DNA of 52,589 nucleotides, taken from assembly GCA_025929185.1 (NCBI GenBank), contig JAICMO010000004.1:1-52589 (forward strand), given 5' to 3'. Origin of the DNA: Pseudolabrys sp. Its GTDB lineage: Bacteria > Pseudomonadota > Alphaproteobacteria > Rhizobiales > Xanthobacteraceae. The position numbers and the translations under genes are program-made. The notes under the pieces were generated by a model. The model did not search any database. It was not told the DNA's origin and saw only the letters and a program-made list of their open reading frames with translations. Every line of letters begins with the position of its first letter. Position 1 is the stretch's first letter. This document shows positions 2,592 through 18,974 of this stretch, piece after piece.

Positions 2592-2634
2592 GTTCACGAC
2601 GTGAACGAGAAAACTTGACGTTCATGCTGTGAAC
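2592..2634. promoter_or_regulatory. Tandem 15-bp palindromic operators upstream of the winged-helix regulator
   Basis: GTTCACGACGTGAAC (2592-2606) and GTTCATGCTGTGAAC (2620-2634) share the pattern GTTCAY-N3-GTGAAC, with centres 28 bp apart. The second lies 30 nt before the regulator start and overlaps the space after a possible -35 box TTGACG (2615-2620). Paired sites directly before a winged-helix gene and between divergent operons fit autoregulation plus control of the GT4 pair. No other copy of the palindrome was found in the window by eye. Confidence 0.65.
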
Positions 2635-2664
2635 GATCTACGGATCGTCCGTCGAGGGGCTTTC

Positions 2665-3303: not shown

Positions 3304-3806
3304 GCGCGCAACGCTGGTACGCGGTTCAGTCGCAGCCAAATTCGGAGATCAAGGCGGTTGCCCATCTCAAACGGCAGGGCTTCGAGACCTATTTGCCGCG
3401 ATATCAGAAGCGCCGCCGGCATGCGCGACGTTTCGAAATCGTACCGGCCCCACTTTTTCCTCGCTATCTGTTTGTCCGAATTGATCTGGAGACGCAGCGC
3501 TGGCGCGCTATCTTCTCAACCATCGGCGTCTCACGTCTCGTCTGTAACGGCGACGTGCCGGCCGCCATCGATGACCGTGTCCTCGCCAGTTTGAAGAGCC
3601 GCGAAAATGAGCTGGGATTTGTCCAGCTCAATCAGCCTCCAATGTTTCAACCCGGCGATAAACTACGTGTTATCCAGGGTGTGTTCTGCGATAATCTCGG
3701 CCTATTCGAGGAAATGACTGACCAAGAGCGCGTGACGATTTTGCTCGACTTGTTAGGGCGAAAGGTCCGGGTTGTGTTAGATGCGGACCTGGTCGCTGCT
3801 GCTTAG
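3300..3806 (+). CDS. NusG-family specialised antitermination factor (RfaH/UpxY-like)
   Basis: Protein of 168 residues. The N-terminal NGN domain (RWYAVQSQPNSEIKAVAHL, then LFPRYLFVRIDLE) binds RNA polymerase. The C-terminal KOW domain starts near FQPGDKLRVIQGVF (about residue 118). Divergence from housekeeping NusG and its place at the head of a polysaccharide cluster mark it as a specialised paralog that keeps polymerase going through long operons, like RfaH, LoaP or UpxY. It is translationally coupled to the regulator by ATGA. A GGCGGTAGC element lies 65 nt after its stop codon. Confidence 0.85.
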   Translation: MSAQRWYAVQSQPNSEIKAVAHLKRQGFETYLPRYQKRRRHARRFEIVPAPLFPRYLFVRIDLETQRWRAIFSTIGVSRLVCNGDVPAAIDDRVLASLKSRENELGFVQLNQPPMFQPGDKLRVIQGVFCDNLGLFEEMTDQERVTILLDLLGRKVRVVLDADLVAAA

Positions 3807-3977: not shown

Positions 3978-5030
3978 ATGATCCAGAACACCGTTAATTT
4001 GCGCAGCTACGATGCGAAATTGTGCGACCTGAGCGGAAAGTCGATTTTGGTGACGGGCGGCACCGGCTCGTTCGGTCGCTCCTTCGTCGCAGCCGTGATC
4101 AAACGATTTCAGCCGGAGAAGCTGATTATCTTTTCGCGGGATGAGTTGAAGCAGTTCGAGATGGCCCGCGAATTTTCTGACAAGGATTATCCCGTCCTGC
4201 GCTATTTTATCGGTGATGTGCGCGATGCAGATCGGCTGGAAATGGCGATGCGCGGCGTCGACTACGTTGTTCACGCCGCGGCGCTGAAGCAGGTGCCGGC
4301 GGCCGAATATAATCCTTTCGAATGTATTCGGACGAACGTTCACGGCGCCGAAAACGTCGTACGCGCGGCCATCCGCAGCGGCGTCAAGCGCGTCATCGGC
4401 TTGTCCACCGATAAGGCGGCCAATCCCATCAATTTGTACGGTGCTAGCAAGCTTGCATCCGACAAGATCTTCGTCGCCGCCAATGCGCTCGCCGGCCGCA
4501 ACGGCACGCGTTTTGCGGTCGTGCGCTACGGAAATGTCATTGGCTCACGCGGGAGTGTGGTTCAGGTTTATCAGCACCTCATTGACAGGGGAATCGATAC
4601 GCTGCCTCTTACCGATGCGCGAATGACTCGCTTTCTGATAACATTGCAACAGGGCGTCAACGTCGTTCTTTCGTCTTTTGCGATGATGGAAGGTGGCGAG
4701 GTATTCGTGCCCAAGATCCCGAGTATCAAGATTATCGATCTTGCGGAAGCGATGTCGCCGAATGCGAAAGTTGAGGTCATCGGCGTGCGCCCCGGCGAAA
4801 AGCTCCACGAAGTGATGATCTCGGAAGACGATTCGCGGATCACACTCCAGCTAGACGACCGCTACGTCATAGAGCCGCTATTTAATTTCTGGAGTCGCAC
4901 GGCCTATGAAGAGCGCGGCGCGACGCGCGTCACCGAGGGGTTCCGTTACGCCAGCGATACCAATGACGAGTGGTTGAACGTCGAGCAGATTCGGTCCCTG
5001 CTGGCGAGCTGCGGCAGAGGCTACGCTTGA
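3978..5030 (+). CDS. pseB: UDP-GlcNAc 4,6-dehydratase (inverting), pseudaminic acid step 1
   Basis: Turns UDP-GlcNAc into UDP-2-acetamido-2,6-dideoxy-L-arabino-hexos-4-ulose in the cytoplasm. The 350-residue SDR protein has the NAD(P)-binding TGGTGSFG near residue 25, FSRDELKQFEMA, HAAALKQVPAAEYNP, the catalytic LSTDKAANPINLYGASK, and the C-terminal GVRPGEKLHEVMISEDD, all PseB signatures. It is the first gene of the long plus-strand operon. The ATG at 3978 has no strong Shine-Dalgarno site, which may mean leader-dependent translation. Its TGA overlaps the TTG start proposed for pseC. Confidence 0.92.
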   Translation: MIQNTVNLRSYDAKLCDLSGKSILVTGGTGSFGRSFVAAVIKRFQPEKLIIFSRDELKQFEMAREFSDKDYPVLRYFIGDVRDADRLEMAMRGVDYVVHAAALKQVPAAEYNPFECIRTNVHGAENVVRAAIRSGVKRVIGLSTDKAANPINLYGASKLASDKIFVAANALAGRNGTRFAVVRYGNVIGSRGSVVQVYQHLIDRGIDTLPLTDARMTRFLITLQQGVNVVLSSFAMMEGGEVFVPKIPSIKIIDLAEAMSPNAKVEVIGVRPGEKLHEVMISEDDSRITLQLDDRYVIEPLFNFWSRTAYEERGATRVTEGFRYASDTNDEWLNVEQIRSLLASCGRGYA

Positions 5031-6235
5031 CGTCCGATCTCGGCTCCTACGGCCGCCATCTCGTGGAGGATGACGACATTGCAGCCGTTGTCGAGGTTCT
5101 GCGCGGTGATCGCTTAACCACCGGTCAAACCATCGATGCGTTCGAGCGGGCATTTGCCCTGCAAGTCGGAGCGCAGCATGTCGTTGTATGCAATAGTGGC
5201 ACAGCGGCGCTATATCTAGCCGCACGCGCGGCCGGTCTCGAGCCTGGCGATGTGGCGATCGTGCCATCGATGACGTTCGCCGCCACCGCCAGCGCCAATG
5301 TTCTCGCCGGCATTGACGTGGTCTTCGCCGATGTCGACCCCGATTCCGGCCTGATGCACGTCGAGCATGCTGCGGAAGCGCTTGAACGTGCTAACGGGCA
5401 GCGTGCTAGAGCCGTCTTCCCGGTGCATCTGGCCGGCCAGGTCGCCGACCCGCCGGCGTTGAAGCGGCTTGCCGACGCACATGGCCTAGCAGTCATTGAA
5501 GACGCATGTCACGCGCTCGGCACACGTTACGGACACGAATCCGTACCCGTCGGCTCATGCTTGCACAGCCAAGCGGCCTGCTTTTCTTTTCATCCGGTGA
5601 AGGCGATTGCTATGGGCGAGGGCGGCGCCGTATCAACCCACGATGCGACATTGGCAAACCGTGCCCGGCTTCTGCGCAATCACGGCATGACCCGAGAGGC
5701 TACCGCTTTTACGAATTCCGACCTCGCGAACGGTGTGGATGGTGTCAACCCGTGGTATTATGAAATCGGCGAGATCAGTCACAATCTGCGCGTCAGCGAC
5801 ATCAATTGTGCGCTTGGTCTCAGCCAGCTTCGTAAGCTCGACCGTTTCGTAAAGGCGCGCCAAAAACTGGTAACGCGCTATCGTGCCCGCCTGTCGGAAC
5901 TGGCGCCGCTCGTTCGTGTCGTTCCGGAAACGCAGCCGGGCGAGACCGGATGGCATCTGTTCTGCGTCCTGATTGATTTCGATGCGCTCGGCATGGATCG
6001 CAAGGCCTTTATGGAGCGATTGCTGGCAAAGGGCATTGGATCGCAAGTCCATTACATCCCTGCACACCTTCATCCCTACTATCGCGCTCGCTATTCGTCG
6101 CCGGAATTGCCGGGAACGATGGCCTATTATCGGCGGATCCTCTCTTTGCCTCTGTTCGTGTCGATGACCGAAAGCGACGTCGACTATGTTGCCGACGGTT
6201 TGCAAACGATTCTGCACGAGGCTACGGGCGTATGA
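5027..6235 (+). CDS. pseC: UDP-4-amino-4,6-dideoxy-AltNAc transaminase, pseudaminic acid step 2
   Basis: PLP-dependent DegT/DnrJ family aminotransferase that adds the C4 amino group to the PseB product, using glutamate. Visible motifs are GDRLTTGQTIDAFE, CNSGTAALYLAARA, PSMTFAATASANV, IEDACHALGT and the PLP-lysine segment FSFHPVKAIAMGEGG. A TTG at 5027 overlaps the pseB stop (TTGA) and follows AGAGG by 6 nt. It gives 402 residues beginning at the usual PseC N-terminus. The GTG at 4970 would add 19 residues inside pseB and is less likely. Ends in a 4-nt overlap with hisH1. Confidence 0.9.
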   Translation: MTSDLGSYGRHLVEDDDIAAVVEVLRGDRLTTGQTIDAFERAFALQVGAQHVVVCNSGTAALYLAARAAGLEPGDVAIVPSMTFAATASANVLAGIDVVFADVDPDSGLMHVEHAAEALERANGQRARAVFPVHLAGQVADPPALKRLADAHGLAVIEDACHALGTRYGHESVPVGSCLHSQAACFSFHPVKAIAMGEGGAVSTHDATLANRARLLRNHGMTREATAFTNSDLANGVDGVNPWYYEIGEISHNLRVSDINCALGLSQLRKLDRFVKARQKLVTRYRARLSELAPLVRVVPETQPGETGWHLFCVLIDFDALGMDRKAFMERLLAKGIGSQVHYIPAHLHPYYRARYSSPELPGTMAYYRRILSLPLFVSMTESDVDYVADGLQTILHEATGV

Positions 6236-6861
6236 CGGTCGGCGTGGTCGATTACGGTGCCGGGAATTTGCGCTCGGTTCTAAACATGTTTGCATATCTC
6301 GGCGAAGACGCGACCATCCTTCGGGAACCCGAAGATGTTCTCGGCGCGGATCGTCTTGTGCTGCCCGGCGTCGGTGCGGCGGGCGAGGCGATGGATCGTT
6401 TGCGGACAAGACATCTCGACGAAGCGCTCGATGAGGCCGTGCTGGAAAAGGGTCGGCCGCTGCTCGGCATCTGCCTCGGCATGCAACTCATTTCGGAGCG
6501 GCTCTTTGAGTTCGGCGAACGTCGTGGTCTTGGCTGGATCGACGGCGACGTCATCAACATACGACATTGTACGAACGATCCCCATTTGCGGGTTCCACAT
6601 ATGGGATGGAATCAGATCGAGATTATGCCGACCGGCGAAGAGTTTCTTTCCGGGATAGGCAACAGCCAGCAGTATTATTTCGCACATTCTTTCACGCTGC
6701 GGCCGAGCGACGACAATGTCGTCGCGGCGCGAACGTCATATGGAGCGGACCTCGTCGCGGCCGTTCGTAAGGACACGATATTCGCAACGCAGTTTCATCC
6801 TGAGAAGAGTCAGGTCGCCGGTGAGCGGATGATTTCGGCATTCCTCGAGTGGAATCCGTGA
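6232..6861 (+). CDS. hisH: HisH-type glutaminase, copy 1 of the sugar amidotransferase system
   Basis: Class I glutamine amidotransferase of 209 residues that frees ammonia from glutamine. The triad is intact: Cys81 in LLGICLGMQ, and His189 and Glu191 in TQFHPEKSQ; the oxyanion segment LPGVG is kept. Place inside a pse cluster, 4-nt overlap with pseC, and no other his genes argue for a role with a PseA/WbpG-type sugar amidotransferase, as at Campylobacter Cj1314c-Cj1316c and the P. aeruginosa O5 wbpG locus. Histidine synthesis is very unlikely. Pairs with hisF1, one nucleotide downstream. Confidence 0.88.
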   Translation: MTVGVVDYGAGNLRSVLNMFAYLGEDATILREPEDVLGADRLVLPGVGAAGEAMDRLRTRHLDEALDEAVLEKGRPLLGICLGMQLISERLFEFGERRGLGWIDGDVINIRHCTNDPHLRVPHMGWNQIEIMPTGEEFLSGIGNSQQYYFAHSFTLRPSDDNVVAARTSYGADLVAAVRKDTIFATQFHPEKSQVAGERMISAFLEWNP

Positions 6862-6862
6862 C

Positions 6863-7618
6863 GTGCTGTTGCAGCGTCTCATTCCGAGTCTGCTCCTTCG
6901 GGGCGGGCGGTTGGTCAAAGGAGTCGAGTTTCAGAGCTTCCGCGATGCCGGACGGCCCGAGACGACGGCGCGGGCGCATAACGCACAGGGTGCCGACGAG
7001 ATCATTGTGCTCGACATCGATGCATCGCGAGAGAAGCGGCCGCCGGATTTCGAAGCGCTTCGTCGCGTCACTGCCGAATGCTTTATGCCAGTTACTTTCG
7101 GTGGCGGCATCCGCTCTCGCGACGATGCGGCGCGGGCGCTTGATGCTGGCGCAGACAAGCTGACATTGACGATGACCGCGCTCGAGAATCCGGGCCTGAT
7201 CGATACCCTTGCCCATTATCTTGGCTCCCAGGCGGTGGTTCTTGGAGTCGATGTGGTTCGCGTCGATGGGCGCGCCATGGTTTACGATCACCATCGCCAT
7301 GAGCCTGCCCTCGACCGGAGCGTAAAAGGATGGATCGATGAAGCGATCGATCGCGGCGCCGGAGAGATTCGCCTGATGTCGGCCGACAGGGAAGGGCGCC
7401 GGATGGGCATGGACCTTGACCTCATTGGCAAGGTCGCCGCGAGCTGCGAGGTACCGGTGGTGGCGGAAGGCGGAGCCGGTACCCTCGAACACTTGGCGGA
7501 AGCTTTGCATGCCGGCGCAAGCGGCGTCGCCGTGGGGACGATGCTGGTTTTCTCCGACAATAATCTCGTTAAAATCAAAAGCTTCCTCAAGTCGCGCGCC
7601 TGCGCCATGAGGATGTGA
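6863..7618 (+). CDS. hisF: HisF-like ammonia-channel subunit, copy 1, lacking the cyclase Asp11
   Basis: TIM-barrel protein of 251 residues, GTG start one nucleotide after hisH1. Compared with Thermotoga HisF, catalytic Asp11 is Leu (IPSLLLRGG in place of ACLDVKDG). Asp130 is present (VLGVDVVRVDG) and so are the ammonia-gate residues Arg5, Glu46, Lys99 and the Glu of RGAGEIRL. This pattern fits a barrel that passes ammonia from HisH to a partner rather than making imidazole glycerol phosphate. The PseA-like partner is not adjacent: the nearest lies 2.4 kb downstream, after the GNAT, synthase and CMP-sugar genes. Confidence 0.85.
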   Translation: MLLQRLIPSLLLRGGRLVKGVEFQSFRDAGRPETTARAHNAQGADEIIVLDIDASREKRPPDFEALRRVTAECFMPVTFGGGIRSRDDAARALDAGADKLTLTMTALENPGLIDTLAHYLGSQAVVLGVDVVRVDGRAMVYDHHRHEPALDRSVKGWIDEAIDRGAGEIRLMSADREGRRMGMDLDLIGKVAASCEVPVVAEGGAGTLEHLAEALHAGASGVAVGTMLVFSDNNLVKIKSFLKSRACAMRM

Positions 7619-8202
7619 TCGTGCGTCCGCTGCATCCGGTCGAGGGTAACCGCTTGGCGTTGTCTGGCCTCGATGTCTCCCATGCCGGGGGCCGATATCT
7701 GGGCTGGCTCCACGACCCCGAAGTGACGAGGTTTCTCGAAGCGCGTCTGGTCGACTACGATCTCGATCGTTTGAGCGCATATATCAGGGCCGAGAACGAA
7801 CGTTCGGACGCCGTACTGTTTGGCATGTTTCTGAGGCAGTCCGGACAGTTCGTCGGCACAATCAAACTGTCGAATATCCGCACGACGCACCGCAGTTGCA
7901 ATATTGCGCTGATGATCGGCGACAAGGCCTTATGGGGTCGAGGGTACGGTACCGAGGCCATTGCGCTGGCTTCAGGTTATGCGTTCGACGCTCTGAATCT
8001 GCACAAGATTCTTGCCGGATGTTACGCCAACAATCTCGCTTCCGCCGGTGCGTTTCTGAAAGCCGGTTACGGTGTCGAAGGCCGACTTACGGATGACCGG
8101 TGGGACGGCCATCGCTTTGTCGATTGCATCCTCCTCGGAAAGCTCAATCCGTCGGAAACGGATCTATCCGTGGCCCCTAATTCCCGGAAGGAAACGGAAT
8201 GA
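7615..8202 (+). CDS. GNAT N-acetyltransferase (RimJ/RimL-like)
   Basis: Acetyl-CoA-dependent transferase of 195 residues. The GNAT core is visible: FVGTIKLSNI, IALMIGDKALWGRGYGTEAI (motif A, acetyl-CoA pyrophosphate loop) and CYANNLASAGAFLKAGY. GTG 7615 overlaps the hisF1 stop. A second GNAT domain is fused to PseG at 14054, so two acylation or amidation steps on amino sugars may exist. It could acylate N4 of a nonulosonate precursor (PseH or LegH role) or another amino group of the glycan; substrate is unproven. Confidence 0.75.
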   Translation: MIVRPLHPVEGNRLALSGLDVSHAGGRYLGWLHDPEVTRFLEARLVDYDLDRLSAYIRAENERSDAVLFGMFLRQSGQFVGTIKLSNIRTTHRSCNIALMIGDKALWGRGYGTEAIALASGYAFDALNLHKILAGCYANNLASAGAFLKAGYGVEGRLTDDRWDGHRFVDCILLGKLNPSETDLSVAPNSRKETE

Positions 8203-9278
8203 ACGCGCAGCGTCGCAGCGTCAGGATCGGTCATCGCGATATCGGGGACACGTCGCCGGTATTCATCACGTTCGAAGCCGGGCCGACGCATGATGGCGTT
8301 GAAGCCGCGAAGGCGCTGGTGAGCCATGCGGCACGTGCCGGCGCCGATGGGATCAAATTCCAGATTGTCGATCCCGATCGGCTTGTTGCAGACCGCAAGC
8401 AGACAATCAGTTATGAGGTGTTGGTCGATCGAGCGAGTGGCAAGACTGAAACGATTCAGGAATCGTTGTATGAGGTTCTGGCGCGCCGAGCGCTTACGCA
8501 CGATCAATGGCGGGAGGTCAAGGCGCACAGCGACAGCCGCAATCTTGCGTTCTTTGCGACCATAGCGTTCGAGGATGAGATCAAGTTGTTGCAGGATATC
8601 GGCTGTCACTCGATCAAGATCGCCTCCGGCGACGTTAACCATCTGCCGTTTATTCGCAAGGCGGCTCGTACCGGTATGTGCATTCAACTCGATACCGGAA
8701 ACTCCACTCTCGGAGAGATTGAAGCGGCTGTGGATGTGATCCGCGGCGAGGGCAACGAGGATATCATTATCCACCAGTGTCCGTCCGGCTATCCGGCACA
8801 TCTCGACAGCATCAATCTGCGGATCATAACAACGCTGCGGCAGATGTTTCCGTATCCGATCGCGTTTTCCGATCACACCCCGGGCAACTCGATGGACATT
8901 GCCGCCGTGGCGATCGGTGCCAACCTGACGGAGAAGACGATTTCGCTCGATCGCATGACACGAAGCATCGAGCACATCATGTCGCTCGAGCCGGACGAGA
9001 TGACCGGGTTCGTAAAATCGATTCGTGATCTCGAAATAGCCCTCGGAACGTCGCGCCGCCTCCTGCATGAAGCCGAACGGAAAAGGAGGATGGCGATCCG
9101 TCGGAGCGTGTTTCTCGATGCTCCTGTCCGTGCCGGCCAGTTACTGCACGAAGCCGCCGTGGCGTTTCGCCGGCCCGGCTTCGGTCTCGCGCCGGATGCT
9201 TTCGAGGGAGTCCCGTCGGCGCGGTTCCGCCGTGATCTGCCGGCCGGCCACATGGTGACGCCGGCGGACATCGAATAG
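8199..9278 (+). CDS. Divergent NeuB-family nonulosonic acid synthase
   Basis: Protein of 359 residues with the NeuB barrel and a C-terminal SAF (antifreeze-like) domain. Family members condense PEP with a 6-carbon amino sugar to give a nonulosonic acid. Recognisable parts are ARAGADGIKFQ, CHSIKIASGDVNHLPFIRK, QCPSGYPAHLDSINLR and FSDHTPGNS (His226 kept). It differs from the second synthase at 15564: the entry motif is FITFEAGPTHDG and the metal-ligand His of EKHFTL is Thr247 (EKTISL). It overlaps the GNAT gene by 4 nt and precedes the CMP-sugar synthetase. It may make a different acid or be catalytically altered. Confidence 0.78.
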   Translation: MNAQRRSVRIGHRDIGDTSPVFITFEAGPTHDGVEAAKALVSHAARAGADGIKFQIVDPDRLVADRKQTISYEVLVDRASGKTETIQESLYEVLARRALTHDQWREVKAHSDSRNLAFFATIAFEDEIKLLQDIGCHSIKIASGDVNHLPFIRKAARTGMCIQLDTGNSTLGEIEAAVDVIRGEGNEDIIIHQCPSGYPAHLDSINLRIITTLRQMFPYPIAFSDHTPGNSMDIAAVAIGANLTEKTISLDRMTRSIEHIMSLEPDEMTGFVKSIRDLEIALGTSRRLLHEAERKRRMAIRRSVFLDAPVRAGQLLHEAAVAFRRPGFGLAPDAFEGVPSARFRRDLPAGHMVTPADIE

Positions 9279-9281
9279 CGG

Positions 9282-10004
9282 GTGTGCTTGTCAAGGCTTG
9301 CCATCATTCCGGCGCGAGGCGGGTCAAAAAGGTTGCCGCGCAAGAACGTCATCGATTTCCACGGACGTCCGATGATTGGTTACACTATCGAAGCGGCGCG
9401 CGAGAGCGGATGTTTTGACCGCGTCGTCGTGTCAACCGAGGACCCCGAGATCGCGGAAATTGCATCAAGCTTCGGCGCTGAAATCGACCACCGTTCTCCG
9501 AAACTCGCAACCGACCAGGCTAAAGTAATCGATATCTGCCTTGAGTTCCTACGCCGGGAGGCGAACGAAGGCCGTAGATGGACAGTCATGGCGTGTCTTT
9601 ACGCGACCGCGCCGATGCGATCTTCGTACGACATCAGGGCAACGGTCGATCTCTTGAAGCCGGGGCGCTGCGACTTCGCCATGGCGGTTACAGATTATGC
9701 GCTAGCACCCCATCAGGCACTGAAAAGGGAAGCTGACAATGTGCTCGTGCCGATGTGGCCGGACCTGATCGAGAAACGGGCCAGCGAACTCCCGCCGCTT
9801 GTCGTCGATAACGGCAGCACATATGCGGTCACTGTCGAGGCATTCGAGAGGCTTAAGACGTTCTACGGTCCCAATCTGCGCGGCCATGAAATGCCGCGCG
9901 ACCGGTCGATCGATATCGACACGCGCGAAGATTATAAATTTGCTCTCTGGCTGGCTGGCCGCAGCGGATTGTGCGGTGAGGACAGTCGTTCGAGCAAGGC
10001 ATAG
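9282..10004 (+). CDS. pseF: CMP-nonulosonic acid cytidylyltransferase (PseF/NeuA family)
   Basis: Activates a nonulosonic acid with CTP to the CMP-sugar donor. The 240-residue protein begins with the nucleotide-binding IIPARGGSKRLPRKN, then FHGRPMIGYTIEAARES, VVVSTEDPEIAEIA, and the substrate segment NGSTYAVTVEAFERL. GTG 9282 is used; TTG 9288 is an alternative start. It is the only CMP-sugar synthetase in the window and would have to serve both NeuB-family synthases. PseF is preferred over NeuA because the rest of the pse pathway is present. Confidence 0.85.
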   Translation: MCLSRLAIIPARGGSKRLPRKNVIDFHGRPMIGYTIEAARESGCFDRVVVSTEDPEIAEIASSFGAEIDHRSPKLATDQAKVIDICLEFLRREANEGRRWTVMACLYATAPMRSSYDIRATVDLLKPGRCDFAMAVTDYALAPHQALKREADNVLVPMWPDLIEKRASELPPLVVDNGSTYAVTVEAFERLKTFYGPNLRGHEMPRDRSIDIDTREDYKFALWLAGRSGLCGEDSRSSKA

Positions 10005-10013
10005 AACTGGAAC

Positions 10014-11237
10014 ATGCCGATGAAATACTGCACCAAATGCGTCATGCCAGAAACGGCAGAGTCCTTGAGCTTCGATGAGGCCGGCTCCTGCTCGGTTTGC
10101 CGGCAAATCGAATACAAGCGCGAGTCGATCGACTGGCCCGAGCGCCGGAAGTGGCTCGACAAACTCGCCGACAAATACCGCGGCAAATATGAATATGACT
10201 GTATCGTTCCATTCTCTGGCGGCAAGGATTCGACCTTCACGCTTTGGTATGTCGTCCGCCAACTGAAGCTGCGGCCGCTGGTCGTGCGCTTCGACCATGG
10301 TTTTCTGCGACCTACCGTTCAGGAGAATTCAATCCGTACTTTCCGCACGCTCGGCGTCGATGTCCTGCACTTCACGCCGAATTGGCAGGTGGTCCGCAAA
10401 TTGATGTTCGAATCGCTTCGTCGCCGCGGTGATTTCTGTTGGCACTGCCATACCGGCATTTTTTCTTATCCGATGTGGATTGCGCTCCGTTTCAACGTGC
10501 CGTTGATGTTCTGGGGCGAGCCCGATGCCGAATATTCGTCGTTCTATAGCTATGAGGACATCGTCGAGCACGACGATCGGCGCTTCAACCGGCTGGTTAA
10601 TCTCGGAATCAACTCCGAGGACATGCTGGGCATGCTCGACGACACGATTTCAGACTATCACGTCGATCCGCGCGACCTGAAGCCATACACATTTCCGCAA
10701 GCGGTGGAGCTTCGCAAGGCCAAGATCAAGTCGGTGTTCCTGGGCTCGTTCATTCCTTGGGACGTCAAAGAACAGGTGAAGGTGATCAAGGCGGAGCTCG
10801 GATGGAAGGGCGACGAGGTTGAAGGCATTCCGCCCGAATACGACTACGAGAAGATCGAGTGTTTCATGCAGGGCGTGCGTGATTACATCAAGTTTCTCAA
10901 GCGCGGCTTCGGACGCACGACGCATTTGACGTCGATCGACGTCCGTAATGGGCGGATGACGCGCGATGAGGCGGAAAAGCTAGTCGCCCAATACGACGGC
11001 AAACGGCCTGTTGCGCTCAACATTTTCCTCGAATTTCTCGGCATCAGCGAACAGCAGCTCATGGAGGTCGTGTCGCCACACGTGGTGTTGCCGCACGAAA
11101 TGCCGAAGCTTGACGATATCCCGCGCGCCAATCGCACGCCTTGGGACTACGACAAGTGGGTGCGGATCGTCGGCGATCGCAAGAAAGACGACGGGCAGGC
11201 GGATGCGGCTGGCGCCGCCGAACTCAAACCGCATTGA
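10014..11237 (+). CDS. N-acetyl sugar amidotransferase (PseA/WbpG family), copy 1
   Basis: Protein of 407 residues that adenylates a sugar N-acetyl group and replaces its oxygen with ammonia, giving an acetamidino group. Features are CTKC (6-9) and CSVC (26-29) Cys pairs, probably zinc-binding; the PP-loop FSGGKDST near residues 67-74; WHCHTG; and LGSFIPWD. Ammonia should come from a HisH/HisF pair, as for P. aeruginosa WbpG or Campylobacter PseA. hisH2-hisF2 follow directly. About 30 C-terminal residues are polar and poorly conserved. Which sugar is modified is not known. Confidence 0.86.
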   Translation: MPMKYCTKCVMPETAESLSFDEAGSCSVCRQIEYKRESIDWPERRKWLDKLADKYRGKYEYDCIVPFSGGKDSTFTLWYVVRQLKLRPLVVRFDHGFLRPTVQENSIRTFRTLGVDVLHFTPNWQVVRKLMFESLRRRGDFCWHCHTGIFSYPMWIALRFNVPLMFWGEPDAEYSSFYSYEDIVEHDDRRFNRLVNLGINSEDMLGMLDDTISDYHVDPRDLKPYTFPQAVELRKAKIKSVFLGSFIPWDVKEQVKVIKAELGWKGDEVEGIPPEYDYEKIECFMQGVRDYIKFLKRGFGRTTHLTSIDVRNGRMTRDEAEKLVAQYDGKRPVALNIFLEFLGISEQQLMEVVSPHVVLPHEMPKLDDIPRANRTPWDYDKWVRIVGDRKKDDGQADAAGAAELKPH

Positions 11238-11254
11238 GCGGATGACATTCGTCA

Positions 11255-11875
11255 ATGGGTCAACGCGTCGCCATTGTCGATTATGGTCTTGCTAATCTGC
11301 AATCGGTCAACAATGCGATCGAATGCTTCACGCCTGACAGCTATATCGCGGAGTGCGGCGAGGCTCTCGCGGGCGCCGACAAAATCGTGCTGCCTGGTGT
11401 CGGGCATTTCGACGAGGGCATGCGCGGCTTGCGCGACCGCGGCCACGAGGCGGCGCTTGGCAGGCTAGTGCTTGAACGGGGGATTCCGTTGCTCGGCATC
11501 TGCTTGGGATTTCAATTCCTGTTCTCCGGGAGCGAGGAGGGCTCCCAAAGGGGTCTCGGCTGGCTACCAGACCGGATCGTCCGGATTCCCCACGGCGAGG
11601 GCAACAAGGTGCCGCACATGGGCTGGAGCGAGGTTCAGCTTCGGCAGCCTTCGCGACTCCTGGCGGGCATCGAGCTGCCCGTCGAATTCTACTTCGTTCA
11701 CAGTTACTGCGCGCCCGATGCGGGCGAGGCCGCGAAATGTGCTTCTGCGCTGTGCGATTACGGCATTCCTTTCGTTGCGGCGCTTGAGCGGGACAATATA
11801 TTCGCGACGCAGTTTCATCCGGAGAAGTCGCAGCTCGCCGGAATGAAACTCCTAGAAACCTTTCTCGCGCTCTGA
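11255..11875 (+). CDS. hisH: HisH-type glutaminase, copy 2 of the sugar amidotransferase system
   Basis: Second class I glutaminase, 206 residues, clearly diverged from copy 1. Active-site residues are kept: Cys83 in LLGICLGFQ, His188 and Glu190 in TQFHPEKSQ, and LPGVG for the oxyanion strand. It lies between pseA-like copy 1 and hisF2, 17 nt after the former and 10 nt before the latter, in the classic WbpG-HisH-HisF arrangement. It supplies ammonia for amidination. Confidence 0.88.
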   Translation: MGQRVAIVDYGLANLQSVNNAIECFTPDSYIAECGEALAGADKIVLPGVGHFDEGMRGLRDRGHEAALGRLVLERGIPLLGICLGFQFLFSGSEEGSQRGLGWLPDRIVRIPHGEGNKVPHMGWSEVQLRQPSRLLAGIELPVEFYFVHSYCAPDAGEAAKCASALCDYGIPFVAALERDNIFATQFHPEKSQLAGMKLLETFLAL

Positions 11876-11885
11876 CTATCCGCAC

Positions 11886-12701
11886 ATGCCGAAGCACCGC
11901 TTGATCGCGACCCTGCTCGTCGACTCCGGACGAGTCGTCCAAACGCGCCACTTCAAGCGAACCAATATGGTCGGCAGCGCCTTCACCGCGGTCGACTTCT
12001 TCAATAGTTGGACGGTCGACGAGATCATCGTGCTCGAGATATCCAACGACACGTCTCATCTCTCACGCATGCAAGAGATTGTCGCAGAGCTCTCACGGCG
12101 ATGCTTCGTCCCGCTTTCGGTCGGCGGGAAGATTCGCGATCTCGAACTCGCGCGCCGTTATCTGCGGCTCGGGGCGGACAAGATCGTGCTGAATACGGGC
12201 GCGGTTGAGTGGCCCGAACTGATTTCGGAAATTGCATTCTTTTTCGGACGACAATGCGTCATCGTGTCGATCGACGCTAAGCCTGATGAAGGCATGCCCT
12301 CCGGCTACCGAGTCATGATCGACAATGCGCGGCGGGAGACCGACCTCGATGTGCTCGACTGGGCGCATCGCGCGGTCGACCTTGGGGCAGGCGAGTTGAT
12401 GATCAACGCGACCTCGCACGATGGGAGCAAGCAGGGCTACGACCTTGCGCTGACCAATAAGGTATCGACGTCGGTGCCGGTCCCGGTGATAGCGATGGGT
12501 GGTGTCGGCAAGCTTTCGGACTTTGTCGACGGCATAAAGCGAGGCGGCGCCGATGCTGTCGCCGCCGGCAATATCCTTCACTATTTTGAGCACAGCACAA
12601 AGAAGGCCAAGGAGGCGATGGCCGCGGCGGGGGTGCCCGTCCGCCACATTGGGTTCTACAAAGTGGCGATGCCGCGCCGGCCGAAATATCGTCCTTTCTA
12701 A
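11886..12701 (+). CDS. hisF: HisF-like ammonia-channel subunit, copy 2, lacking the cyclase Asp11
   Basis: TIM barrel of 271 residues. Position 11 is Leu (IATLLVDSG) where HisF has catalytic Asp, while Asp130 (IVSIDAK), Arg5, Glu46, Lys99 and the Glu of LGAGELMI remain. It also has a longer C-terminal tail (HIGFYKVAMPRRPKYR) that copy 1 lacks and that might contact a PseA-like partner. It is 24 nt upstream of pseA-like copy 2. Loss of the same cyclase residue in both copies supports a dedicated ammonia-channel job outside histidine synthesis. Confidence 0.87.
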   Translation: MPKHRLIATLLVDSGRVVQTRHFKRTNMVGSAFTAVDFFNSWTVDEIIVLEISNDTSHLSRMQEIVAELSRRCFVPLSVGGKIRDLELARRYLRLGADKIVLNTGAVEWPELISEIAFFFGRQCVIVSIDAKPDEGMPSGYRVMIDNARRETDLDVLDWAHRAVDLGAGELMINATSHDGSKQGYDLALTNKVSTSVPVPVIAMGGVGKLSDFVDGIKRGGADAVAAGNILHYFEHSTKKAKEAMAAAGVPVRHIGFYKVAMPRRPKYRPF

Positions 12702-12725
12702 GGTTATCGAGCGGAGACCAGGTCT

Positions 12726-14000
12726 GTGGAATATTGCAAGCGTTGCGTTTATCCGGCCAATGCCAAGCCTGGCATTGTCTTCGACGACGATGGGATTTGC
12801 TCGGGTTGCCGGACCTTTGAGCACCGCACGTTCCTCAAGCACCAAGTGGACTGGGCCTCGCGGCGGCGTATGCTCAAGGAACTGCTCGAGGAATATGCCG
12901 CACGCCAGCGCGCCAAGGGTAATCCGTTCGACTGCATTATTCCGGTATCCGGAGGCAAGGACAGCCACTATCAGGCTGGGGTGATCAAGCGCGAATTTGG
13001 TCTCAATCCGCTGCTGGTCTCCTACAATCATACGTTTAACACGCCGCTCGGTATCCGCAATCTGACCAACATGGTCGAGAAGCTCGATTGCAATCTAGTC
13101 CGCTTCACGACTGCGCCGGGCTCAGCCGTCCGCATGGCCAAATACATGCTCAAGAAGGTCGGCGACGTGACCTGGCATTATCATGCGGGAATCATGACGT
13201 TTCCGATCAAGGCGGCCGTACAGTATGACGTGCCCTTGATCGTCTGGGGCGAGGAAGGCTTCAGCGAGCTGGTCGGCATGCACAATCTCGACGATTTCGT
13301 CGAGTTCACGAAGAAGAAGCGGCAAGAGCATTCCATGCGGGGGTTCGAACCGGAAGACCTTTTGGAAGAACCGGACTGCCCACTCAACCGCTACGATCTT
13401 GCGCCGTTCTTCTACCCGACCGACGAGGATCTCGAACGCGTCGGCGTTCGTGGAATTTATCTTGGCAATTACCTGCTATGGGATGGCCGCAGTCAGACCG
13501 AGTTCGTCATCAAGGAACTCGGCTTTGAATCGGCGCAGTCGCGGGACCGCACCTTCAATATCTACGGTAAGACCGACGACATCCATGCCAATGGCCTGCA
13601 TGACTATCTGAAATATCTCAAGTTCGGGTACGGGCGAGCGACCGATGATGCGGCCAACGAAATACGTCACGGCCGCATGAGCCGTGAGCAGGGTATCGAC
13701 ATGGTCATGCGGTTCGATCATGTGCGGCCTTACGATATGGACATTTTTCTCGACAAGGCCGGAATGACCGAGGATGAACTGCTGGCGCTGGTCGAACCCA
13801 TGCGCGATCCGGCCATTTGGGAAAAACGGAATGGCGGCTGGGTCTTGCTGGATGACGTCGGCAATCACCGAAGCGACGCGGGTGTGGACCGGGCGCGCTT
13901 GCCGCACGTCGAGAACTGGCGGCCGTTTGACCCGACGCCCAGCCGCGCGTCGGAGCGCTTCCAGGAGGACGGAAAGCAAACAAGCTATGTCATTCTCTAG
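12726..14000 (+). CDS. N-acetyl sugar amidotransferase (PseA/WbpG family), copy 2
   Basis: Second sugar amidotransferase, 424 residues, GTG start. CKRC (4-7) and CSGC (25-28) Cys pairs come first, then the PP-loop VSGGKDSHY near residue 74, WHYHAGIMTFP, and LGNYLLWDG. It differs from copy 1 throughout, including WHYHAG against WHCHTG and a longer C-terminus, so the two are old paralogs rather than a fresh duplication. With hisH2-hisF2 just upstream and hisH1-hisF1 earlier, the operon can encode two full amidination machines. Substrate may be a different N-acetyl position or a different sugar from copy 1. Confidence 0.86.
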   Translation: MEYCKRCVYPANAKPGIVFDDDGICSGCRTFEHRTFLKHQVDWASRRRMLKELLEEYAARQRAKGNPFDCIIPVSGGKDSHYQAGVIKREFGLNPLLVSYNHTFNTPLGIRNLTNMVEKLDCNLVRFTTAPGSAVRMAKYMLKKVGDVTWHYHAGIMTFPIKAAVQYDVPLIVWGEEGFSELVGMHNLDDFVEFTKKKRQEHSMRGFEPEDLLEEPDCPLNRYDLAPFFYPTDEDLERVGVRGIYLGNYLLWDGRSQTEFVIKELGFESAQSRDRTFNIYGKTDDIHANGLHDYLKYLKFGYGRATDDAANEIRHGRMSREQGIDMVMRFDHVRPYDMDIFLDKAGMTEDELLALVEPMRDPAIWEKRNGGWVLLDDVGNHRSDAGVDRARLPHVENWRPFDPTPSRASERFQEDGKQTSYVIL

Positions 14001-14053
14001 GCACCGGCTTGCTCCAGGCGTCGCTTGCCGGCTTTGGCTTGGTCGAGTGAGAG

Positions 14054-15553
14054 ATGGAGCGAAGGGTTTTTTTTCGCGCTGATGCCTCGCCTCAGCTGGG
14101 GGGCGGCCATATACGCCGTTGCCTGGTGTTGGCGGACGTCTTGCGGACAGCCGGGTGGGATTGCACTTTTGCCGTGGCGGCCGGATCGGTCGCCGTCGTG
14201 CCGCTGTTGGCGCGTTCTGATCATCGGGTGATTGAAATTTCCATCCATGATTCGTGCGATCTCAGCGCGTTCGCGCTGCACGATTTCGATCTCGCGGTGA
14301 TCGATCACTATGGTCTTGGCGCGGAATTCGAACAGAAGTGCCGCGCCTGGGCAAAGCGGATTCTCGTAATCGATGATCTCGCCAACCGTCCGCATGACTG
14401 CGATATTCTGCTCGACGCGACCTTGGGCCGCACCGAGGGAGCCTATCGCTCGCTCGTGTCCGCATCGACGGCGCTGCTGCTCGGGCCTCGCTTTGCCCTT
14501 CTGGAGTCGCGCTTTTTTGCACGACGCATGACGCTGCGTGATCCGATGGAAACGGTCGGAGCGGCGTTTGTGAGCTTCGGCACAGTCGATTCGGCCGACT
14601 TGAGCAGCAAGGCCGTGATAGCCCTGAGGGCAGCCGGCATGCCGATCAAGATCGATGTGGCGGTCGGAGCGGCGAGCCCGAACATCAGGACTTTGCAGGA
14701 GATGGCGGACGATGACGTTTCTCCCGCCCGCATCGTTGTCGATAGCGACGATATGTCCGCTTTGATGGCAGCCGCAGCCATCGCGATCGGTGCGGGCGGG
14801 GTCACGAGCTGGGAGCGCTGCTGTCTCGGTCTACCTTCATTGATCGTTACGGTTGCCGACAATCAGAAAGAAGGTGCCTCGACGCTTGACCGGGCCGGTG
14901 CCGCAAAGTGGCTTGGCTCCGTGGGCTCACTATCGGATGATCAGTTGAGAGCCGCAGTCAAATCGTTGATCGAAGATCATACCGGCCGCGCCGCCATGCG
15001 GGCAGCGGCGCTGACGATAACCGACGGCCTCGGCGCCCGGCGTGTCGTTTCGGCAGTGGAAGATCCTGTAAGGGCAAAGGATGGACTGCTTGTTACCTTG
15101 CGGCCTGCTGGTCCCGATGACTGCGAAATGATGTTCGCGTGGCAGACGGCGCCTGGTGCCCGGAAATATTCGCGCAACCCGCAGCCCTTCCGGTATGAAG
15201 AGCATCGGGAGTGGTTCCGCAGAAAGCTGGCCGATCCGAAGTGCGTCTTCAACATTGCAATGCATGACGGCAAGCCGGCAGGCATCTTACGTTACGACGG
15301 GCGCGCTGAACAAGCATTTGAAGTTTCGATTCTTGTTTCGGCGGATCATCAAAGGCGAGGCATTGCATCCACGGCATTGACGTTGGGCAGGCGCCTTTTA
15401 CCGGATGCAGTTGTCACTGCGGAGGTCGATCCGGCCAATCTCGCAAGCGCGAGCCTCTTCACGAGAGCGGGCTACCGGCGCATAGACGAGCGTCGTTACA
15501 TTCTGGCACCGGGCGATGCCTCTCCGACGCATCACGGCCTGCCGGCCGCGTGA
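14054..15553 (+). CDS. pseG: PseG-PseH fusion: UDP-sugar hydrolase and N4-acetyltransferase
   Basis: Bifunctional protein of 499 residues for two pseudaminic acid steps. Residues 1 to about 340 are PseG, a GT-B-fold hydrolase releasing UDP from the diacetamido-altrose: [18 protein letters not shown] with catalytic His19, [13 protein letters not shown], and [19 protein letters not shown]. From about 345 a GNAT domain ([45 protein letters not shown]) matches PseH, which acetylates N4 before PseG acts. A run of eight T (14067-14074) falls at codons 5-7. The order PseB, PseC, PseH, PseG, PseI is complete with this gene. Confidence 0.9.
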
Positions 15554-15563
15554 AGGTTTCGTC

Positions 15564-16613
15564 ATGACGCGCGCAATATCGATCAATGGACGGGCGATCG
15601 GCCCCGATCATTCACCTTACATCATCGCTGAGCTATCGGGAAACCATAACGGCGATCTCAATCGCGCATTTGCGATTATGGAGGCGGCGGCCAGAGCCGG
15701 CGTAGACGCGATCAAATTGCAGACCTACACCGCCGATACGCTCACGATCGACTGTGACAATACTGATTTCGTGATCAAAGGCGGGCTATGGGATGGGCGC
15801 ACGCTTTATGACCTTTACCAGGAAGCTTCGACGCCTTGGGAATGGCACCACGCATTATTCGCCAAAGGACGCGAATTGGGTGTGACGGTATTTTCCACGC
15901 CGTTCGACGACACAGCGGTAGAGTTTCTTGAAGCGCTGAATGCCCCGGCCTACAAGATCGCATCGTTCGAACTGCTCGACTTGGCCTTGCTCCGTAAGGT
16001 GGCCAGGACTGGCAAGCCGGTCGTTGCTTCGACTGGGATGGCAAATCTGGAAGAGATCGGTTTGGCCGTGGAGACATTGCGTGCCGAAGGATGCCAGGAT
16101 CTCGTACTGTTCCACTGCATTAGCGGCTATCCGACCCCTCCCGAGGAATGCAATTTGCGCACCATTGCCCATATCGGTTCGACCTTCAGCACTCTCGTTG
16201 GATTGTCCGATCACACCCTCAGCAATGCAGTCGCCGTCGCAAGTGTTGCGGTCGGCGCGGTCATGATCGAAAAGCACGTTACCCTGGAGAGAACGGCCGG
16301 CGGTCCCGATGTCGCTTTCTCTCTCGAACCGGCCGAATTGGCGGCATTGGTTCGTGATTTGCGGACGGCATGGAGCGCGCTTGGGAAAGTGAACTACGAA
16401 CGGCAGCCGAGCGAAGCCGACAATGTGATATTTCGGCGCTCCATTTATGCTGTTCGCGATATCGCGGCAGGTGAAGCGTTCAGCCGGGATAACATTCGGG
16501 CTATCCGCCCGGGTTTCGGCCTCGAGCCGAGGCACCTTGACACTTTGCTGGATCGAAAGGCGGTCTGCAGGATTCCGCGCGGCACGCCGCTTCGCTGGTC
16601 GATGGTGAGTTGA
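15564..16613 (+). CDS. pseI: Pseudaminic acid synthase
   Basis: NeuB-family enzyme of 349 residues joining PEP and 6-deoxy-AltdiNAc to give pseudaminic acid. Signatures are [82 protein letters not shown] and EKHVTLER with both metal-ligand His present, then a SAF domain ([15 protein letters not shown]). ATG 15564 follows GAAGG by 7 nt, and the upstream ATG at 15516 lies inside pseG-pseH. This synthase is canonical, unlike the one at 8199. Confidence 0.93.
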
Positions 16614-17665
16614 CAGGCCGCGATGCTGAGAATGTTCACTTGAGGCTACTCGTTCTCGGAGCCGGTTCTGCGGGCGTTCGCCACGCTTTGTCGGGCCAGG
16701 TGCTCGGACTTGACGTCGGCATCATGGACGTCGACTCCGCTCGCGCGGCCGAATCGGCCGTGAAGGTTGGCGCATCGGCACACTTTAACGATCTTGACGC
16801 GGCGCTGGCCTGGAAGCCGGATGCCGTTCTCGTTGCGACGCCGCACGTGCATCACGTTTCGCAGGCTATAGCAGCATTGCGATCGAATGCCGACGTTCTC
16901 ATCGAGAAGCCGATTTCCGATCGCGTCGAGCGTGCCCAGGAATTCCTGGCCGTGGCGCGTGAATCGGGCCGCAAGGCTTTTGTCGTGTGCAATATGCGAT
17001 TCCATCCGGCCGTTGCCGTTCTGCGCGATAATCTTCATCGTGTTGGCGCGGTTCGCTATGCGCGCGCGCACTATGGGAATTATCTGCCGAATATGCGGCC
17101 CGGTGCCGATTACCGGACACTCTATTGCGCACGGGCGGAGACCGGCGGCGGCGTCATGCTCGACGCCATTCACGAGATCGACTACCTGATGTGGCTGCTC
17201 GGCCCGGCAAATGCCGTGCAAGGCGCGCACGCGCACCTGTCCGATCTCGATATCGATGTCGAAGATTTCGCCAATATTGTGCTCGCGCACAAAGGGGGCG
17301 CGCGATCAGTCATTACCCTCGACTATCTGCGTCCGTACAAGCGGCGAGGTTGCGAAATCGTCGGCGAGAAAGGCCTTCTGCTCTGGGAGAGCGAAGGAAG
17401 GAAGCCCGAGTGCTGCTCGGTCCGTTTCTATGATGCCAAGAGCGAGCACTGGGAAACGCTACTCGACGATGCCGCTCTCGATACCGACAAGCCCTACGTC
17501 GAGATGCTTGGCGACTTCGTGGGCGCCGTTCAAGGGCATTCGCACAGGCTCCAGACCGTCGCCGATGCGGTGGAGCGGCTCGCCGTTACCGTTGCTGCAC
17601 GACAGCAGTCGTTATCGTCACTTCCTCAGATGCATGTGAGCCCGGGGGGCAACGCCGATGTCTAA
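16610..17665 (+). CDS. Gfo/Idh/MocA-family oxidoreductase
   Basis: NAD(P)-dependent sugar oxidoreductase of about 351 residues. N-terminal Rossmann motif [14 protein letters not shown] near residue 14, then VATPHVHH, the conserved EKPIS with catalytic Lys, NMRFHPA and [15 protein letters not shown]. The TTG at 16610 overlaps the pseI stop; TTG 16640, ten codons later, also gives a normal N-terminus. It overlaps the class III aminotransferase by 8 nt. The pair may oxidise then aminate a sugar or a small side-chain precursor; the substrate is not known. Confidence 0.8.
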
Positions 17666-18974
17666 AGAGATCATCTCCTTCGAGGCCAGCAAGCAATGGC
17701 TCGCCCGGGCCCTCGAGCGCATTCCGACCGGCTCGCAGACCTTCTCGAAGAGCTATTTGCAATATCCGGTCGGCCATGCGCCGTTGTTTTTGGATCGTGG
17801 CCAAGGCGGAAGGGTATGGGATATCGACGGCAATGAGTTCGTCGACCTCGTCGCAGGCCTACTGCCGGTAACGCTGGGTTATCGCGATCCGGATGTCGAT
17901 AACGCTATCAAGGCTCAGCTTGAAAAAGGCATCTCGTTCAGCCTCGCCACGCGGCTGGAATTGGAGCTTGCCGAGCGGCTCGCAGAGATCGTCCCCTGTG
18001 CGGAGATGAGCCGTTTCGGTAAAGCTGGCTCTGACGCGACATCGGCGGCCGTCCGCCTGGCGCGAGCGGCGACGCGCCGGGACCGGATCGTCATCTGCGG
18101 ATATCATGGCTGGCACGATTGGTACGTCGGTTCGACTGTGCGGTCTTTGGGCGTTCCCGAGGCGGTCAGGGGACTCTCGCACCGCATTTCCTATGGCGAT
18201 ATCGACGCATTCCGCGTTGTCCTCAAAGCCCACCCTGGAGAGATCGCAGGCATCATCATGGAGCCGATGAATTCGGCTGAGCCACCGGTGGGCTATCTCG
18301 CCGACATGCGGGATCTTGCGCATGCGCATGGCGCGCTGTTCATCTTCGATGAGATCATCACCGGGTTTCGCTATGCCTTGGGCGGCGCTCAGGAGCTATT
18401 CGGCGTCACCCCGGATCTTGCCGCCTTTGGTAAAGGCATGGGCAATGGGATGCCGATCTCGGCCCTTGTCGGCAAGGCCGAAGTCATGCATCTGCTTGAC
18501 GAGGTTTTCTTCTCGGGAACGTTCGGGGGCGAAGCCCTGTCGCTCGCTGCGGCGATCGCCGTCATCGATAAAATGCGCCGCGAGCCGGTGATCGAACATC
18601 TCTATAGCTTCGGGCGTCGCCTGAATGCCCAACTCGCGGGTCTTCTCAGGCAGCACGACCTCGACGAGACCATCTTCCTCAAGGGGCAGCCGTGCTGGAC
18701 GATCCTGGTGATCGCCGATCATGCGGCGGCGACGAAGGAGGAAATCAAGACTTTCATCGTTACGCGATTGGCTCGGAACGGCGTTCTCTCGAACGTCACC
18801 CACAATATCTGCTACGCGCATAACGAGCAGGATTTGAACGACTGCGTGAGCGCTTATCAGAACGTACTCACCGAACTCGGTGATCATGTGCGGTCTGGGC
18901 CGGGCCGGCTAGGGGCCATGCTCGGATGCGACCCGGTAGCGCCCGTGTTTTCGCTTCGCAGCCACAGCCGATGA
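17658..18974 (+). CDS. Class III aminotransferase, glutamate-1-semialdehyde aminomutase-like
   Basis: PLP enzyme of 438 residues resembling HemL. Visible are FSKSYLQYPVGHAP, the cofactor loop FGKAGSDATSAAVRLAR, YHGWHDWY, IMEPMNSAEPP, FDEIITGFR and PLP-lysine AAFGKGMGNGMPI. HemL itself is a housekeeping gene elsewhere, and this copy sits in a polysaccharide operon. Similar enzymes in glycan clusters are thought to transaminate sugar or side-chain aldehydes. Acting with the preceding oxidoreductase is likely. About 30 C-terminal residues past the fold look unstructured. Confidence 0.78.
   Translation: MSKEIISFEASKQWLARALERIPTGSQTFSKSYLQYPVGHAPLFLDRGQGGRVWDIDGNEFVDLVAGLLPVTLGYRDPDVDNAIKAQLEKGISFSLATRLELELAERLAEIVPCAEMSRFGKAGSDATSAAVRLARAATRRDRIVICGYHGWHDWYVGSTVRSLGVPEAVRGLSHRISYGDIDAFRVVLKAHPGEIAGIIMEPMNSAEPPVGYLADMRDLAHAHGALFIFDEIITGFRYALGGAQELFGVTPDLAAFGKGMGNGMPISALVGKAEVMHLLDEVFFSGTFGGEALSLAAAIAVIDKMRREPVIEHLYSFGRRLNAQLAGLLRQHDLDETIFLKGQPCWTILVIADHAAATKEEIKTFIVTRLARNGVLSNVTHNICYAHNEQDLNDCVSAYQNVLTELGDHVRSGPGRLGAMLGCDPVAPVFSLRSHSR

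Follow-up and report, generated by a model that had tools for sequence, protein, structure and literature searches.

The window analysed here is the whole of contig JAICMO010000004.1 of Pseudolabrys sp. (52,589 nucleotides, GC content 0.60; assembly GCA_025929185.1, 3.63 Mb in 281 contigs and about 90% complete), and it carries a pseudaminic acid (Pse) operon that contains two sets of amidination genes. The operon is a single plus-strand run from 3978 to 18974 in the order pseB, pseC, hisH1, hisF1, GNAT, NeuB1, pseF, wbuX1, hisH2, hisF2, wbuX2, pseG-GNAT, pseI, Gfo/Idh and class III aminotransferase. PseC (4970..6235; TIGR03588, 435 bits for a cut-off of 423.5), the aminotransferase predicted to install the future N7, the hydrolase PseG (14054..15553; TIGR03590, 240.1 bits for a cut-off of 153.55) and the pseudaminic acid synthase PseI (15516..16613; TIGR03586, 493.4 bits for a cut-off of 340.25) all score above the curated cut-offs of their equivalog families, which identifies a pseudaminic pathway. 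They are accompanied by a pseB-like UDP-GlcNAc 4,6-dehydratase gene (3978..5030; PF02719, 336.7 bits), with homologues in many of the relatives' loci, and by a pseF-like gene for a CMP-nonulosonic acid (NulO) synthetase (9282..10004; TIGR03584, 192.3 bits, just under the cut-off of 205.7). The operon holds a single copy each of pseB, pseC, pseG and pseF, and in the whole genome, as far as its 90% completeness goes, only one CTP_transf_3 match, perhaps a Kdo-type enzyme, outscores PseF. PseG is fused to a GNAT domain (PF13302, residues 347-475) presumed to provide the PseH activity. A separate GNAT N-acyltransferase (7615..8202; PF13302, 79.7 bits) reaches 33.3 bits against the PseH profile, the cut-off of which is 93.1. 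The last two genes of the run encode a Gfo/Idh/MocA oxidoreductase (16610..17665; PF01408, PF22725), whose presumed task is the oxidation of a hydroxyl ahead of transamination, and an aminotransferase of class III (17658..18974; PF00202, 178.5 bits), which presumably adds a third amino group. Two amine-installing enzymes, PseC and the class III protein, are matched by two GNAT domains.

Amidination of the type seen in Pseudomonas aeruginosa (WbpG-HisH2-HisF2) and Escherichia coli (WbuX-WbuY-WbuZ) is the work of a three-part machine made of a glutaminase, a HisF-like protein and an ATP-PPase, and TIGR03573 and WbuZ are also the best families of the window proteins. Set A consists of the glutaminase gene hisH1 (6232..6861), hisF1 (6863..7618) for the presumed ammonia channel and the N-acetyl sugar amidotransferase (NASAT) gene wbuX1 (10014..11237). 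Their counterparts in set B are hisH2 (11255..11875), hisF2 (11886..12701) and wbuX2 (12726..14000), and both sets are intact. Both WbuX proteins lie above the curated TIGR03573 cut-off of 203.2 (348.2 and 330.3 bits), with the PP-loop SGGKDS in each and tetracysteine pairs CTKC/CSVC in WbuX1 and CKRC/CSGC in WbuX2. Both HisH proteins exceed the TIGR01855 cut-off of 105.4 (208.7 and 205.0 bits) and contain GICLG and FHPEK, which we take to be the motifs of the catalytic Cys and His-Glu. HisF1 (227.8 bits for the WbuZ family TIGR03572, 219.1 for NF038364) and HisF2 (247.4 and 209.0 bits) remain under the respective cut-offs of 299.7 and 310, and are HisF-like partners outside certified WbuZ/AglZ-HisF2 membership. 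Both also fail the histidine-pathway family TIGR00735 (199-217 bits, cut-off 294.55), and they lack the Asp of CLDVKDG that is present in the genome's own histidine-type HisF. The possibility that the sets are the cell's histidine genes was rejected, as that HisF (353.1 bits) lies on contig C221 together with a glutaminase of HisH type and with a HisF-like match that is weaker and may be HisA. A first-pass annotation made from the letters alone had reported two HisH, two HisF and two amidotransferases between 6232 and 14000, and the open frames, profile scores and motifs bear this out. All nine genes of this interval are open, on the same strand and where it had placed them, but its gene order stops short of the PseG-GNAT fusion (14054), pseI (15516), the Gfo/Idh gene (16610) and the aminotransferase gene (17658).

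The two amidotransferases belong to separate lineages. In a first tree of 89 WbuX, WbuX1 falls in clade A (21 rows; support of 100 in the SH-like approximate likelihood ratio test, SH-aLRT) and WbuX2 in clade B (30 rows, SH-aLRT 99), where it forms a six-row subclade (support 100) with the WbuX of loci L191, L194, L197, L263 and L196. As the two copies are only 33% identical and sit in separate well-supported clades, a recent duplication was rejected. Among the 89 rows the PP-loop reads SGGKDS in 79 and SGGRDS in 1, with 9 not matching the pattern. A second tree, namely the first minus four rows (three long branches and one near-copy) plus six WbuX of other context, joins these six in a clade of their own to which neither window copy belongs (SH-aLRT 100, under a long-branch warning). 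Three of the six come from uronate-type loci (L052, L055, L056) and three from other loci, and their PP-loop is SGG[VIT]DS, as against the SGGKDS of the window copies. A NulO synthase is absent from the five of these six stretches that were checked; the sixth, L045, shows none either, and has one about 15 kb off beside another WbuX. The trees are quick searches with SH-aLRT as sole support and no characterised enzyme among their rows. The phylogeny of the copies proposed in the first-pass annotation has thus been obtained for WbuX, with characterised WbpG and PseA outside it.

The association of these genes is not due to chance: other genomes carry them together as well. In the window set A is split, its block being interrupted by NeuB1 and pseF. 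In relatives, WbuX1 homologues (61-70% identical) usually adjoin hisH1 (42-56%) and hisF1 (47-61%), and a GNAT gene follows hisF1 in G508, G425, G411, G375, G620, G352, G496, L194 and L208. In G520 wbuX1 is separated from hisH1-hisF1, and the hisF1 homologue of G620 is in two pieces. The order hisH2-hisF2-wbuX2 is contiguous in L191, L194 and L263, and HisF2 is 60-67% identical to its counterparts in the double-set relatives. In loci with set B as single set, HisH is about equally similar to HisH1 and HisH2.

Follow-up searches covered 80 of the 91 genomes with a WbuX match. The A and B lineages occur together in seven genomes, that of the window and six others. Both complete sets lie within one stretch in the window, in L191 (a Hyphomicrobiales metagenome-assembled genome, MAG), in L194 (Hwanghaeella) and in L263 (a Pseudodesulfovibrio MAG). 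The locus of Hwanghaeella grinnelliae Gri0909 (L194) reads pseB-pseC-wbuX1-hisH1-hisF1-gnat-NeuB1-pseF-gfo-hisH2-hisF2-wbuX2-x-pseI, with a class III aminotransferase gene about 5.6 kb past wbuX2. Tagaea (L197) has both wbuX genes in one stretch, and hisH2-hisF2 with gfo and the aminotransferase gene on another contig. In G634, the genome of L196, hisH2-hisF2-wbuX1-hisH1-hisF1 share one contig and wbuX2 is on others. In G470 one contig carries wbuX1-hisH1-hisF1, and a second carries NeuB1, gfo, the aminotransferase gene, hisH2 and an incomplete wbuX2; no hisF2 turned up in the stretches examined of this genome. Several sets of other composition are present in, for example, G375, G620, G431 and G453. 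Class-wide, 72 of 385 genomes have a WbuX1 match at E<=1e-20, and at least two matches, some of them fragments, are found in 22 of the 72. Two amidotransferases per genome are thus not rare, and it is the A and B pair with such gene content that constitutes a defined, recurring type. These counts, together with the Campylobacter pair discussed below, make the earlier statement that known loci carry one set too strong.

Three further arrangements were seen along the way. In the genome of L191 (G632), about 42 kb of one contig (C6:14748-56704) hold four genes that exceed the cut-off of the N-acetyl sugar amidotransferase family. Locus L105 (G431) is a tandem wbuX-hisH-hisF-wbuX-hisH-hisF-wbuX array with three amidotransferases and two HisH/HisF pairs. 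On plasmid pSC52_3 of Rhodobacteraceae bacterium SC52 (L106), a clade-A wbuX-hisH-hisF block lies beside a cytidylyltransferase gene and a class III aminotransferase gene that is split over two frames.

The genes that accompany the two sets differ. They were compared in 81 loci chosen through NeuB1 (8199..9278), namely 80 of the 86 confirmed relatives plus the window. An aminotransferase, a Gfo/Idh or an aldo/keto reductase is present in 6 of the 8 loci that have set A, in 1 of 25 with set B alone and in 14 of 48 with neither; set A differs from set B alone with a Fisher p=1.7e-4. In this count set B requires 50% identity, so that L199, just under it, is scored as 'neither' despite its place in clade B, and L196 is B-only within its contig, its genome having clade-A copies elsewhere. 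The two set-A loci that miss the linked genes, L197 and L252, have them elsewhere in their genomes. The 25 B-only loci are mostly pseudaminic operons, with PseI at >=48% identity in 18 and pseB in 18; none has the class III aminotransferase, and contig ends truncate several of these stretches. The picture is the same in stretches limited to 20 kb and not chosen through NeuB1: the class III aminotransferase accompanies 7 of 13 clade-A stretches versus 1 of 28 with other NulO-type WbuX (p=5e-4), where G453 gives two of the 13, the plasmid stretch L106 is 37 kb long, and the 28 include three from the sister group of clade A (L102-L104) and L089, from a genome with a clade-A stretch. Linked-gene searches went deeper in clade-A genomes than in others, and this equal-length comparison is the fairer test.

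Clade A is represented by 20 genomes or records: the window, G620, G508, G425, G411, G470, G375, G520, G352, G496, G453, G617 and L106, and those of L191, L194, L196, L197, L208, L249 and L263. Over all the stretches examined and a genome-wide search, the class III aminotransferase is found in 19 of the 20, in 17 at 190 bits or more. Either a Gfo/Idh (10) or an aldo/keto reductase (8) is found in 18, G617 and L106 showing neither; the eight aldo/keto reductases are those of G375, G520, G425, G508, G453, G411, G496 and L263, among the ten genomes devoid of gfo; Pfam checks covered four of the seven in stitched genomes as well as that of L263. PseI is present at >=49% identity in 15 of the 20. 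Set A provides the only WbuX in the Pse loci of G508, G411 and G496 that contain the aminotransferase. Of five long forms of the aminotransferase tested, four (G620, G496, G411 and G508) are fusions with a CTP_transf_3 domain, which places the enzyme near the CMP-NulO stage; no cytidylyltransferase domain was found in the long form of G375.

NeuB1, encoded between the two parts of set A, is a divergent member of the NeuB family. It scores 242.3 bits for TIGR03569 (cut-off 399.65) and 202.1 bits against a cut-off of 340.25, remaining under both synthase cut-offs, and in the four clade members tested no NCBIfam equivalog covers the protein, which shows the motifs FEAGPTH and EKT. In its clade EKH has become EKT in 80 of 81 sequences and STG has become DTG in 81 of 81. 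PseI sequences at >=50% identity to that of the window, itself included, keep His and Ser at these sites in 50 of 50, and EKH is kept in the three PDB relatives of NeuB1 with printed alignments. Because conserved residues are replaced, NeuB1 may not be a phosphoenolpyruvate (PEP)-dependent synthase. Its loci (L184-L263) are usually pseudaminic-type operons, with pseC directly before NeuB1 in 41 of 80 and a second synthase beside it in 40 of 43 full-length loci. The comparison thereby exposes a widespread NeuB paralogue. A hisH gene directly follows NeuB1 in 18 of the 80 loci, all found with NeuB1 as the query, and NeuB1 is therefore linked to set B. Some of these loci, L221/L222, L239/L240 and L254/L255, are nearly identical, or look so, under different organism names (for instance Alphaproteobacteria and Anaerolineae). 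Some MAGs may therefore contain binning errors, and MAG names and phylum counts are unsafe.

We propose, with a probability of about 40%, that the operon makes a pseudaminic-type NulO in which set B acts at N5 or N7 and set A at an additional nitrogen, probably at C8. In each set, HisH would free ammonia from glutamine and HisF would pass it on, while WbuX with ATP would activate the carbonyl of an N-acetyl group and let ammonia displace the oxygen, yielding an acetamidino group. Set B, which many Pse operons have in the absence of set A, would amidinate one of the two standard N-acetyl groups. In its ring form, Pse has free hydroxyls at C4 and C8 besides the anomeric one, which makes C8 the most likely target of the oxidoreductase and aminotransferase, at about the CMP stage. 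The Gfo/Idh enzyme would oxidise that hydroxyl, the class III aminotransferase would turn the ketone into an amine, the GNAT protein encoded at 7615 would acetylate it and WbuX1 would then carry out the amidination. The predicted product is a 5,7,8-triamino NulO bearing two acetamidino groups. This chemistry, the positions and a single product rather than two are inferred from gene content and linkage.

The Campylobacter enzymes PseA and PtmG share one HisH/HisF pair in one locus. They are two amidinating enzymes of this organism, for Pse and legionaminic acid (Leg), respectively (PMC13317340, PMC3766260). PtmG converts CMP-Leg5Ac7Ac to CMP-Leg5Am7Ac (PMC3766260) and its substrate is therefore CMP-activated. 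The likeness of the Campylobacter pair to the window lies in NASAT-type enzymes acting on CMP-activated NulOs; the difference is that PseA and PtmG serve two different NulOs, while the window has two full sets in one pseudaminic operon, and the comparison is by role and not by sequence alignment. A PP-loop and a zinc site are features of NASAT enzymes, which probably convert ATP to AMP and PPi (PMC10607449). A structure search with wbuX2 at E<=0.01 gave one relative, the Legionella pneumophila enzyme LpNASAT (PDB 8WEX; 147 bits). It shares the PP-loop and tetracysteine zinc site of the window WbuX, and is a single enzyme, unlike the two full sets here; the text consulted reports no substrate test for it. 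For chemistry at C8, EpaA of Acinetobacter prophages, a cytidylyltransferase-aldo/keto reductase fusion, epimerises C8 of Pse with EpaB (PMC12053666). The fusion is comparable to the cytidylyltransferase-aminotransferase fusions and aldo/keto reductases linked to set A, but EpaA and EpaB make an 8-epimer and not an amine, and the portion of the text available describes no amidination for them. A NulO with nitrogen at C5, C7 and C8 exists in Flexibacter maritimus (PMC3210612). It shares the third nitrogen at C8 with the predicted product, and the accessible part of the report names no acetamidino group.

Several observations weigh against this proposal. The class III aminotransferase is not exclusive to set A, being also present in 12 of the 48 NeuB1 loci with neither set. 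Its match in G425 is weak (33% identity, not above 150 bits), the copy of L106 is broken in two pieces, that of Tagaea is on a different contig from wbuX1, and G617 has neither aminotransferase nor oxidoreductase in the 14 kb examined. PseI above 38% identity is missing from the stretches examined of G352, G453, G617, L106 and L249, and set A is therefore not tied to pseudaminic acid alone. The triamino model leaves NeuB1 unexplained. The C8 position is suggested by analogy with EpaA, and the aldo/keto reductase family is broad. Finally, the substrate specificity of WbuX cannot be read from its sequence, and the enzyme roles given here are predictions.

That two diverged, intact sets are present agrees with the first-pass annotation, and two acetamidino groups are the natural expectation. 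They might be distributed in other ways. The main rival is that the operon makes two NulOs, one through PseI and one through NeuB1, each with its own amidination set, in the manner of Campylobacter PseA for Pse and PtmG for Leg (PMC13317340, PMC3766260). Besides this precedent, the presence of two NeuB-family proteins and the link between NeuB1 and set B through the adjacent hisH speak for it. A second NulO would nevertheless have to come from an operon with one pseB, pseC, pseG and pseF, in a genome where a single CTP_transf_3 match is stronger than PseF; the altered EKT and DTG motifs of NeuB1 and the absence of either set, by the cut-offs used, from 48 of the 81 NeuB1 loci also count against it, and we regard this alternative as unlikely. 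The bis-acetamidino Pse listed first in the first-pass annotation, with both sets acting on ordinary Pse at N5 and N7, would match a sugar with exactly two N-acetyl groups in its di-N-acetyl form, and both WbuX clades are indeed found in NulO operons. The idea has no place for three genes that go with set A in relatives, those of the oxidoreductase, the class III aminotransferase and the second GNAT, so that the aminotransferase pair would have to serve something else. The statistical link of set A, and not of set B alone, to aminotransferase and oxidoreductase, and the Pse loci in which set A is the sole WbuX beside the aminotransferase, make it an improbable reading.

Two more alternatives carry little weight. 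If the sets were redundant, or one of them inactive or otherwise employed, paralogous sets might back up each other, but the reading frames of all six proteins are open and their motifs intact, the WbuX pair has diverged to 33% identity and both lineages are kept together in seven genomes, which makes redundancy very unlikely. Slightly more remote still is the other earlier proposal, that the substrate of one set is a 2,3-diamino uronic acid, the product of the genes at 29-35 kb of the window. Suitable genes are present there, for a UDP-sugar dehydrogenase (29566), a Gfo/Idh oxidoreductase (32873) and a DegT aminotransferase (33922), and P. aeruginosa WbpG, which acts on ManNAc3NAcA, is a precedent, the substrate of E. 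coli WbuX being L-FucNAc (PMC10607449). The window WbuX, however, do not cluster with those of uronate-type loci, which belong to the other-context clade with its SGG[VIT]DS loop (WbpG itself standing outside the tree), and the loci of clades A and B mostly lack such uronate genes in the stretches examined.

For the proposed triamino NulO, the parts and families involved are already known. In the open-access literature, which excludes most subscription journals, we found neither a description of two amidination machines that occur as a pair within a single pseudaminic operon nor the doubly amidinated sugar predicted from them. A sugar bearing two acetamidino groups was not found there at all, nor a paper tying an 8-amino NulO to an aminotransferase. 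The full picture, in which two dedicated machines yield a triamino, bis-acetamidino NulO from a gene set common, whole or in large part, to seven genomes (of two phyla by record titles) and NeuB1 has moved from PEP chemistry to a new step in pseudaminic operons, is doubtful when all its elements are taken together. Acetamidino groups are positively charged, and two of them on an acidic, sialic acid-like sugar would make its net charge positive. The proposal also gives a testable genome rule: set B alone would predict one acetamidino group, and set A with aminotransferase and oxidoreductase a third nitrogen with an amidine. Bacteria with both lineages can be named for direct chemistry, namely the cultured Hwanghaeella grinnelliae Gri0909 and Tagaea sp., the latter known from an assembly.

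As for the surroundings of the operon, genes for winged-helix and NusG-family proteins lie directly upstream (2629-3806), possibly forming a dedicated antiterminator for this long operon. Downstream of the run are an ABC half-transporter gene and one for a protein of about 500 residues (20860-22407) with a weak match to the capsule-synthesis family PF05159. The latter is met again in many of the relatives' NulO loci and is a candidate glycosyltransferase for the NulO sugar.

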